From contig NZ_JADWOX010000002.1 of NCBI RefSeq assembly GCF_016135805.1, positions 558,001 through 622,000 of the forward strand: a stretch of DNA of 64,000 nt. The letters run 5' to 3'. This DNA comes from Caulobacter hibisci. Its GTDB lineage: Bacteria > Pseudomonadota > Alphaproteobacteria > Caulobacterales > Caulobacteraceae. The translations under genes were made by a program, and so were the position numbers. This document shows positions 50,943 to 52,667 of the stretch, piece after piece. Within the stretch, counting starts at the first letter, position 1, and the number at the start of each line of letters is the position of its first letter. The notes beneath the pieces are model-generated. The model saw only the letters and a program-made list of their open reading frames with translations, was not told the DNA's origin and searched no databases.

Positions 50943-51641
50943 CTAGGCCTCGTCGAAATCCTCGTCCTCGCCGAAGGCCAGCACCTGGGCGGCGAAGGCG
51001 CGGGTGATCCCGCGACCGCTTTCGGAGGCGGCCTCGTCCAGCAGAGCCACCAGGGCCACCGCCTCGGGAGCGCTGCGCGGGATGCGGCGCAGCAGGAACG
51101 CGTAGACGTCGTCGGCCGGGCGGATCAGGCGGTCGGCGAAGGCGCGGCGCAGCACCGCCTCCAGCACCACGTCGTCCGGCTCGTCGATGACGGCGGCGGT
51201 CAGGGCGTTGAGACGCGAGCGCAGGTCGGGCACCACCGTCCGCCATTCCAGCGGCGCGACCTGGGCCGTCAACAGCAGGCTGCCGCCGTCGATCCCGGCC
51301 ATGTTCAGCAGATGGAACAGGTCCTCGTCCGAGACCACGCCGCCGAGCGCGCGGCGATCGGCGTCCTCGATCAGGATCGCCCGGCCGCGCAGGGCGGGCA
51401 GGTCCAGCGGCGCGAGGTTCGGATCCGCCGCATCGATGACCACCGCGCCGGCCTTCTCGGCCCAGGCGCGCGCCAGGTGCGTCTTGCCGCTGCCCGAGGG
51501 GCCGACCAGGGCCAGGCGGCCGTTCGGCCATTCCGGCCAGGTATCGACGGCGCGCACGGCGTCCTCGTTGGCCGGCGATACGGCGAAGTCGTCCCGCTCG
51601 AAGCTCGGCGGACGTTCCAACGGCAATTTCAGCTGGCTCAA
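50943..51641 (-). CDS. hdaA: DnaA regulatory inactivator HdaA
   Basis: HdaA with the sliding clamp triggers ATP hydrolysis by DnaA after initiation. The 232-residue protein begins with a clamp-binding motif QLKLPLE (residues 3-9) and has Walker A GPSGSGKT (47-54) and a DnaA-like AAA+ core. It has no DNA-binding domain IV, unlike DnaA. A cluster of DnaA-box-like sequences and a GANTC (CcrM) site at 51692-51696 lie upstream. It is downstream of the EcsC gene, divergently transcribed. Confidence 0.93.
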   Translation of the reverse strand: MSQLKLPLERPPSFERDDFAVSPANEDAVRAVDTWPEWPNGRLALVGPSGSGKTHLARAWAEKAGAVVIDAADPNLAPLDLPALRGRAILIEDADRRALGGVVSDEDLFHLLNMAGIDGGSLLLTAQVAPLEWRTVVPDLRSRLNALTAAVIDEPDDVVLEAVLRRAFADRLIRPADDVYAFLLRRIPRSAPEAVALVALLDEAASESGRGITRAFAAQVLAFGEDEDFDEA

Positions 51642-51746
51642 GGTCGGGGCGAAGTCACATGGTGAATGGTCGGCAATCTATAGGCGGCGCAGACTCTTAC
51701 AGCGAGACGGCGAACGGGCGCGCTTGGGGATAGAGAAGGCGATAGG

Positions 51747-51850
51747 TGTGGACGCTAGGCAAGGGTGTGGACGCACGTGTGGATGTCCGGTGGACGCTCG
51801 GTGGGCCTTCGTGTGGATGGCCATGACCAAACTGTCCCCGTTGATGCACA
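51747..51850. promoter_or_regulatory. Cluster of DnaA-box-like motifs between hdaA and the EcsC gene
   Basis: Four TGTGGA motifs in the same orientation begin at 51747, 51766, 51778 and 51812; a fifth, degenerate one begins at 51789. They read TGTGGACGC (twice), TGTGGATGT and TGTGGATGG, versus the inverted DnaA box TGTGNATAA. A sixth motif, TGATGCACA at 51842-51850 on the opposite strand, matches TTATNCACA at 8 of 9 positions. The cluster is 106-209 bp upstream of the hdaA start. DnaA binding is inferred only. Confidence 0.4.
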
Positions 51851-51890
51851 GGGCCTTGGGGAGGACTCCGATCCGCGCGCCGAATGGGTC

Positions 51891-52667
51891 ATGATCTCTG
51901 TGGCCGATGCGATTCATCTGGCCGCTCAAACGCTTCGGAGACCTCTTCTGGCCCAGACCGCCGCCACCGCCGATCTCGCCGCCTGGCGGGCGCAGATGAC
52001 CAGGCCGCCCGGCGCCTTGGGCCAGGCCGCCCGCGCCGTGCAACTGAAGGTCAACAAGATCATCCCGGAGAAGGTCCACGCGGCGATCACCGCGGCGATG
52101 CAGGGCATGACTCGGGCGATCCTCACCGGTTCGGACTTCGCCACCGGCGCGCCGCTGGTCCAGGCCACGCTCGACGAGCGGCTGGAGCGTGTGCGCGCGG
52201 CCATCGACGGTTGGAAGAAGGCCGCCGCCGCCGAGGGCGGCATCGCCGGGGCAGGGGGCTTCGTCCTGGCCGCCGCCGACTTTCCACTGTTGATGAGCTT
52301 CAAGATCAAGCTGCTGTTCGAAATCGCCGCCGCCTTCGGCCATGACGGATCGGAGCTCTCCGAGCGGCTCTACATCCTGCACATCTTCGAGCTGGCCTTC
52401 TCGGACGCGGGCCATCGCGCCCGGGTGTTCGAGGCCATGGACGGCTGGGACGTCCGCCAGCACCCCACCGACCTCTCCGGCTTCGACTGGCGCGCCTTCC
52501 AGCAGCAGTATCGCGACCACATCGACCTGGCGAAACTGGCCCAGCTCCTGCCGATCGTCGGCGCGCCGGTCGGGGCGATCGTCAACTGGCGCCTGGTCGA
52601 GAAGCTCGGCCACACGGCGGTGATGGCCTATCGGATGCGGTTGGAGAGCCAGGCGCTGATCGGCTGA
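51891..52667 (+). CDS. EcsC family protein
   Basis: This 258-residue protein fits the EcsC family: KVNKIIPEKVHAAITAAMQGMTRAILTGS near 45-75, GGIAGAGGFVLAAADFPLLMSFKIKLLFEIAAAFGHD near 115-150, and LPIVGAPVGAIVNWRLVEKLGHTAVMAYRMR at the end. Hydrophobic segments suggest membrane association. EcsC is a partner of an ABC exporter in Bacillus, but here there is no exporter nearby. The ATG at 51891 is chosen; the frame is open to 51765 and a longer start is possible. It diverges from hdaA. Confidence 0.85.
   Translation: MISVADAIHLAAQTLRRPLLAQTAATADLAAWRAQMTRPPGALGQAARAVQLKVNKIIPEKVHAAITAAMQGMTRAILTGSDFATGAPLVQATLDERLERVRAAIDGWKKAAAAEGGIAGAGGFVLAAADFPLLMSFKIKLLFEIAAAFGHDGSELSERLYILHIFELAFSDAGHRARVFEAMDGWDVRQHPTDLSGFDWRAFQQQYRDHIDLAKLAQLLPIVGAPVGAIVNWRLVEKLGHTAVMAYRMRLESQALIG

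Follow-up and report, generated by a model that had tools for sequence, protein, structure and literature searches.

Directly upstream of hdaA, the gene for the DnaA regulatory inactivator, the genome of Caulobacter hibisci carries a cluster of short, equally oriented motifs that resemble DnaA boxes. Is this cluster more than chance, and if so, does it serve the expression of hdaA, or DnaA itself as a place to be held or remodelled? The region in question lies within the stretch of 64,000 nucleotides analysed here (the window), which belongs to a genome of 5.57 Mb in 49 contigs. We read the site, with a probability of about 0.86, as a DnaA-activated hdaA promoter in which a G-box-like TCCACA motif acts with a W-box, extended into an array in one clade and operating in negative feedback.

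Such a conserved DnaA-box promoter is real and ordinary in kind: in C. crescentus, DnaA activates the hdaA promoter, which carries as many as six DnaA boxes, as one paper states (PMC3193534, Fernandez-Fernandez et al., 2011, citing Collier & Shapiro, 2009). The regulation of hdaA by DnaA, and the promotion of DnaA-ATP hydrolysis by HdaA, also appear in the review PMC8203912, again with reference to Collier & Shapiro (2009). What appears to be new, measured against the open-access literature, is the genus-wide geometry of the sites, the array specific to one clade, the thinning of the boxes in the family and their absence in four other families; in that literature the phrase 'hdaA promoter' is found together with DnaA in one paper, PMC3193534, and for C. 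crescentus some of this geometry may already be contained in Collier & Shapiro (2009).

The hdaA upstream region

The protein encoded downstream of the boxes scores 362 bits against the NCBIfam equivalog NF051883.1 (cut-off 300), so that the gene is hdaA, as the first-pass annotation of the window had named it; in Pfam, Bac_DnaA alone reaches its cut-off and Hda_lid stays below it. Its nearest named relative is from Caulobacter sp. D5 (91%), followed at 87-89% by Caulobacter sp. 602-2 and by strains labelled C. endophyticus, C. radicis, C. zeae and C. vibrioides T5M6, in a comparison from which the window's own genome records may have been excluded. An intergenic region of 249 bp separates hdaA from a divergent EcsC-family gene (Table 1).

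Table 1. Features of the hdaA upstream region, in window coordinates.
Feature	Coordinates	Strand	Remarks
hdaA (DnaA regulatory inactivator HdaA)	50943..51641	-	TTG start; NCBIfam NF051883.1 equivalog
Putative -10 element CTATAG of the hdaA promoter	51678..51683	-	conserved CTATA position
W-box-like TCCCCA	51725..51730	-	22 bp on the promoter side of the proximal TCCACA
Proximal DnaA box GCGTCCACA	51747..51755	-	the copy common to the genus
Array box GCGTCCACA	51766..51774	-	19 bp from the proximal box in 9/9 clade genomes
Array box ACATCCACA	51778..51786	-	12 bp from the preceding box in 9/9 clade genomes
Degenerate copy GCGTCCACC	51789..51797	-	from sequence; at -153; absent from the eight sisters (shorter array)
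Degenerate copy AGGCCCACC	51800..51808	-	from sequence; at -164; absent from the eight sisters (shorter array)
Outermost array box CCATCCACA	51812..51820	-	full match to the Caulobacter DnaA consensus
Divergent EcsC-family gene	51891..52667	+	Pfam EcsC PF12787, 1e-69; shares the intergenic region with hdaA

Four intact motifs, TGTGGAC at 51747 and 51766 and TGTGGAT at 51778 and 51812, lie on one strand within 72 bp; on the hdaA strand they read TCCACA and start 111, 130, 142 and 176 bases before the TTG. Together with a degenerate GGTGGAC at 51789 and TGATGCACA at 51842-51850 they form the cluster that had been placed 106-209 bp upstream of hdaA, which starts at 51641, with a GANTC site (GACTC) at 51692. 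All these positions, strands and distances are confirmed; a weaker additional copy, GGTGGG at 51800-51805, had been missing from the list.

The window total of TGTGGAY is ordinary (12 found, 8.8 expected), since 24 of 100 shuffles reach 12. The density in front of hdaA goes beyond a random model: the largest same-orientation cluster per 75 bp contains four motifs in the window, as against one in 284 and two in 16 of 300 dinucleotide shuffles, and more than two in none of them. Across the whole genome, TGTGGAY-N0-30-TGTGGAY occurs at six places, three overlapping at the hdaA site and three being isolated pairs; the reversed control gives one.

The E. coli-type box TTATNCACA was rejected as a yardstick for these motifs; a published Caulobacter consensus is [TC][TCG][AG]TCCACA, with TCCACA as its constant half (PMC2877005). 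The outermost box fits this consensus fully, and is likewise CCATCCACA in the sister locus L017; the three other intact boxes agree in eight of nine positions and may be weak DnaA sites, because their position 1 departs from it. A search of the genome with TKATCCACA returns 58 matches and is uninformative on the hdaA site. The genome G045 has a dnaA start that agrees in full with the C. crescentus dnaA primer; its DnaA and that of the window species are 84% identical overall and almost completely so in the C-terminal, DNA-binding part. In the window species this part aligns with PDB 1j1v, which we take to be domain IV of E. coli DnaA with a DnaA box. Because of this near-identity and this alignment, the published binding preference should carry over to the present species.

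Conservation of the proximal box

Among 75 genomes of the genus scanned for hdaA, 73 have some match and 68 loci were retained; G030, G035, G039, G041, G042, G050 and G054 were dropped (weak, DnaA-like match at E 5.9e-5 or worse, or none), and G021 is absent from part of the counts (67 loci) and included in the later ones (68 loci). Start codons in distant loci were extrapolated from the alignment to the query. A sense TCCACA stands 80-125 bp before the start codon in 63 of the 68 loci, which are related and do not represent independent events, and which include L031 despite the different register of its box. In the set of 67, TCCACA is found in 62 loci and its reverse complement in none, with a median of one for 60 permutations of its letters; the three next-best permutations (35, 34 and 28) read the box and its flank in a shifted register, and the fifth reaches 9. 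Two stretches further upstream of hdaA contain TCCACA in one and none of the 67 loci. When these loci are grouped at 75% identity over 130 bp, the box is present in 28 of 29 group representatives. The proximal nine bases match the full consensus in 49 of the 63 loci; the 14 that deviate include all nine loci of the window's clade, every one of them GCGTCCACA.

The conservation across Caulobacter that had been looked for thus holds for the position, strand and spacing of this one box (63/68), and does not hold for the number of motifs, four intact boxes being confined to nine genomes. Two further sites of the first-pass annotation are not conserved and were rejected. TGATGCACA, taken there for a DnaA box, occurs upstream of hdaA in one of 67 genus loci, that of the window species, and is no commoner than chance would have it, five matches to TTATNCACA with one mismatch comparing with 5.1 expected. 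The GANTC site, for which CcrM-dependent timing had been considered, has counterparts at -80..-30 in three of 67 loci, two of which belong to the window's clade.

TCCACA is not indispensable, because it is missing from five of the 68 loci (L048, L056, L059, L060 and L062) and stands in another register, with no partner motif, in L031. In this last locus the usual position is degenerate, and a TCCACA beside the W-box site gives the impression that the strong site has been relocated. The related loci L059, L060 and L062 may have had their hdaA promoter replaced, because the sequence upstream of the gene looks coding nearly to the start.

Promoter geometry

A partner motif, TCC(A/C)C, follows the proximal box at 20-22 bp in 62 of 63 loci (20 bp in 5, 21 bp in 48, 22 bp in 9). 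At the remaining distances between 8 and 60 bp the same motif reaches at most 15 loci (at 30 bp; 10 at 8 bp and 10 at 47 bp), such matches coming easier because the region is C-rich. Among the first 62 loci, 29 have an exact TCCCCA as partner at 21 bp and 9 have it at 22 bp, and in L057, L058, L061 and L069 a second TCCACA occupies its place. Conservation per column among the group representatives is 82-93% within this second motif, as against 43-71% between the two motifs.

Further towards the gene, CTATA stands 68 or 69 bp past the proximal box in 39 of the 63 loci and is absent at 60-75 bp in 24; among the first 62 loci, 16 carry an element of GGTAAA or GCTA type at 66-68 bp in its stead, and 8 carry neither. 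No sigma-70 consensus pair was found at the hdaA promoter, nor a good -35, and a consensus promoter of this kind was rejected; from its conservation, CTATA is the probable -10 instead. Activator sites immediately upstream of a weak core promoter would fit activation by DnaA. CtrA was rejected as a candidate regulator, the region containing no TTAA-N7-TTAA motif. A result from a single model species is in this way extended to a genus-wide pattern: TCCACA and TCC(A/C)C separated by two helical turns, with a -10-like element at an almost constant distance from the pair.

The combination of motifs recalls the C. crescentus origin (Cori), whose W-box is given as TCCCCA and whose G-box is given as TGATCCACA in the published work (PMC4285127), the boxes being weak sites and the W-boxes needing cooperation with G-boxes (PMC4468827, PMC4285127). 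Boxes ending in TCCACA and W-boxes of the form TCCCCA are found at the window hdaA as well; unlike Cori, however, the site is a promoter rather than an origin, TTAA-N7-TTAA is absent, and the boxes begin with CC, AC or GC, where the G-box begins with TG. With the C. crescentus hdaA promoter, for which activation and HdaA negative feedback are described in the literature, it shares the gene and the presence of several DnaA boxes. It differs in their make-up: the four genomes in which the dnaA start gives an exact match to the C. crescentus primer (G045, G069, G070 and G072) have one TCCACA (L027, L028 and L049) or none (L048), followed by TCCCCA-like sites, whereas the window species has four intact TCCACA boxes.

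The clade-specific array

Four intact boxes occur, within the 68 loci, only in nine close genomes (L016-L024, the window species included). In the eight sisters the steps between boxes are 12, 12 and 19 bp; the window species has two extra, decayed copies inside the array. Across the 75 genomes, the places listed for TCCACA-N4-8-TCCACA number 77, in 38 genomes, with 17 of them at the hdaA of the nine clade genomes; the reversed pattern gives about 61 places by a count of its table, and isolated pairs are to be regarded as background because this control is similarly frequent. Runs of three boxes, seen as overlapping pairs, occur at the hdaA of the eight sisters; the 75 genomes contain one more, in G047. 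Pairs of TCCACA with a TATCCACA-type motif 11 bp apart (for example TCCACATTTTATCCACA) are found once each in G004, G020, G032, G039, G040, G052 and G068, and are possibly origin or dnaA sites.

How the array arose is a matter of more tentative judgement. In the nine-genome clade, the single genus-wide box may have been amplified into a phased, one-directional array (steps of 11-12 bp, then 19 and 22 bp promoterward) on which DnaA would polymerise head to tail, making hdaA steeply responsive to free DnaA; we regard this as possible, with the odds somewhat against it. If true, it would amount to an evolutionary retuning of the gain of replication feedback, with box number as the dial. The alternative that slippage produced the extra copies as a neutral minisatellite of 11-12 bp, and that the proximal pair alone matters, draws on Tandem Repeats Finder, which reports a period of 11 with 3.4 copies and 74% matches, and on the copy number, which differs between the window species and its sisters, with two copies decayed. 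It is rendered rather unlikely by the pattern of substitution: across the eight sisters the four boxes are unchanged in 24 of 24 core columns, as against 17 of 30 spacer columns (Fisher p 0.0002, uncorrected for relatedness). This is moderate evidence, because the genomes are closely related and seven of the eight are nearly alike at the array. The hdaA promoters found in nature range from zero to four intact TCCACA boxes, a series in which the effect of box number on replication feedback is measurable with reporters.

Function of the boxes

In the proposed mechanism, which is built on the sequence comparisons above and on the activation known from C. crescentus, DnaA would bind the proximal G-box-like TCCACA together with the weak W-box, two helical turns nearer to hdaA, both immediately upstream of a promoter that has a probable -10 and lacks a good -35 (Table 1). 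Bound DnaA would then help RNA polymerase to start hdaA. In the clade, the three further intact boxes of the same orientation, joined in the window species by the two decayed ones, would lengthen this platform upstream and probably raise its occupancy through head-to-tail cooperative binding. More DnaA would thus yield more HdaA, which with the sliding clamp would cause DnaA to hydrolyse its ATP, closing a negative feedback. The first-pass annotation had proposed a loop of this kind; the conserved boxes and the C. crescentus activation (PMC3193534) bear it out in kind, and it is not new, because that activation was already published. Its stronger form, control by DnaA-ATP specifically, is not supported by the same source: at the hdaA promoter of C. 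crescentus, overexpressed DnaA(R357A) shows no higher activity than the wild type. Because R357A is unable to replace the wild-type protein (PMC3193534), the cells in that experiment probably contained wild-type DnaA too.

The array could in principle act on DnaA rather than on hdaA. The datA and DARS elements of E. coli are clusters of DnaA boxes that affect DnaA activity, acting on its nucleotide state with IHF, and the annotation had offered them as models. The array resembles them in being a DnaA-box cluster, and its several same-orientation boxes at 11-12 bp steps are more than any of the other 59 genus loci examined has; a role mainly as reservoir or remodelling site, with its place before hdaA incidental, is nevertheless improbable, and a titration site is the less likely reading. 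The boxes are few, the distances from the proximal pair to the hdaA start and to the -10-like element hardly vary, and the position and strand of the boxes are tied to hdaA, so that, in contrast to datA and DARS, the placement points to hdaA transcription. The stretch 51641-51891 contains no exact match to the E. coli IHF consensus, from which a Caulobacter site could differ.

If the boxes act on transcription, the divergent EcsC-family gene comes into view as a second candidate target: the array lies 71-144 bp upstream of its start in the window, and in eight of the nine clade genomes the start of its homologue is 230-250 bp from hdaA. Of 30 loci tested, 18 have a homologue in the flanking sequence covered, about 0.15 to more than 1 kb from hdaA. 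In L017, however, it lies about 1 kb from hdaA and the array keeps its usual distance to hdaA, and the corresponding distances for L028 and L030 are about 1.2 and 0.6 kb, again with the proximal box at hdaA. The boxes are assigned to hdaA because they stay with it where the divergent gene lies further away; the EcsC-family gene is probably not their target, and its control by the array would surprise us. Hardly any weight falls, finally, on another transcription factor with a TCCACA-type site. It is suggested by the fact that DnaA binding in this species is read from the motifs themselves, but it would have to share the six bases that form the constant half of the published Caulobacter DnaA consensus (PMC2877005), to account for the W-box that accompanies them, and to coexist with DnaA activation of the C. 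crescentus hdaA promoter (PMC3193534); the CtrA motif, as noted, does not occur here. In the interval that separates hdaA from the EcsC homologue in L017, a near relative, there is an open frame of some 280 codons.

Distribution beyond the genus

Outside the genus, the family was sampled through 44 hdaA loci (43 genomes, 19 genera), hand-chosen for spread and score from 128 genomes. A sense TCCACA at -130..-60 is found in 12 of the 44, and its reverse complement in 2; eight of the 12 box-bearing loci, spread over four genera, also have the partner at 20-21 bp. A sample of the order, 21 loci of four other families hand-chosen for spread and score from 199 genomes listed, shows no sense TCCACA within 400 bp upstream of the gene (0/21), the reverse complement occurring in two, at -334 and -228. 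The contrast between 12 of 44 and 0 of 21 suggests that control of hdaA by DnaA from a promoter of its own belongs to the family and not to the whole order. In the other families hda may come second in an operon, because the sequence upstream of it looks like the end of a coding gene. One genome from another genus of the family (g8; G081:C19:141895-145575, L109 and L110) carries a pair of hdaA-type genes with the same orientation, separated by about 3 kb and each 49-50% identical to the query.
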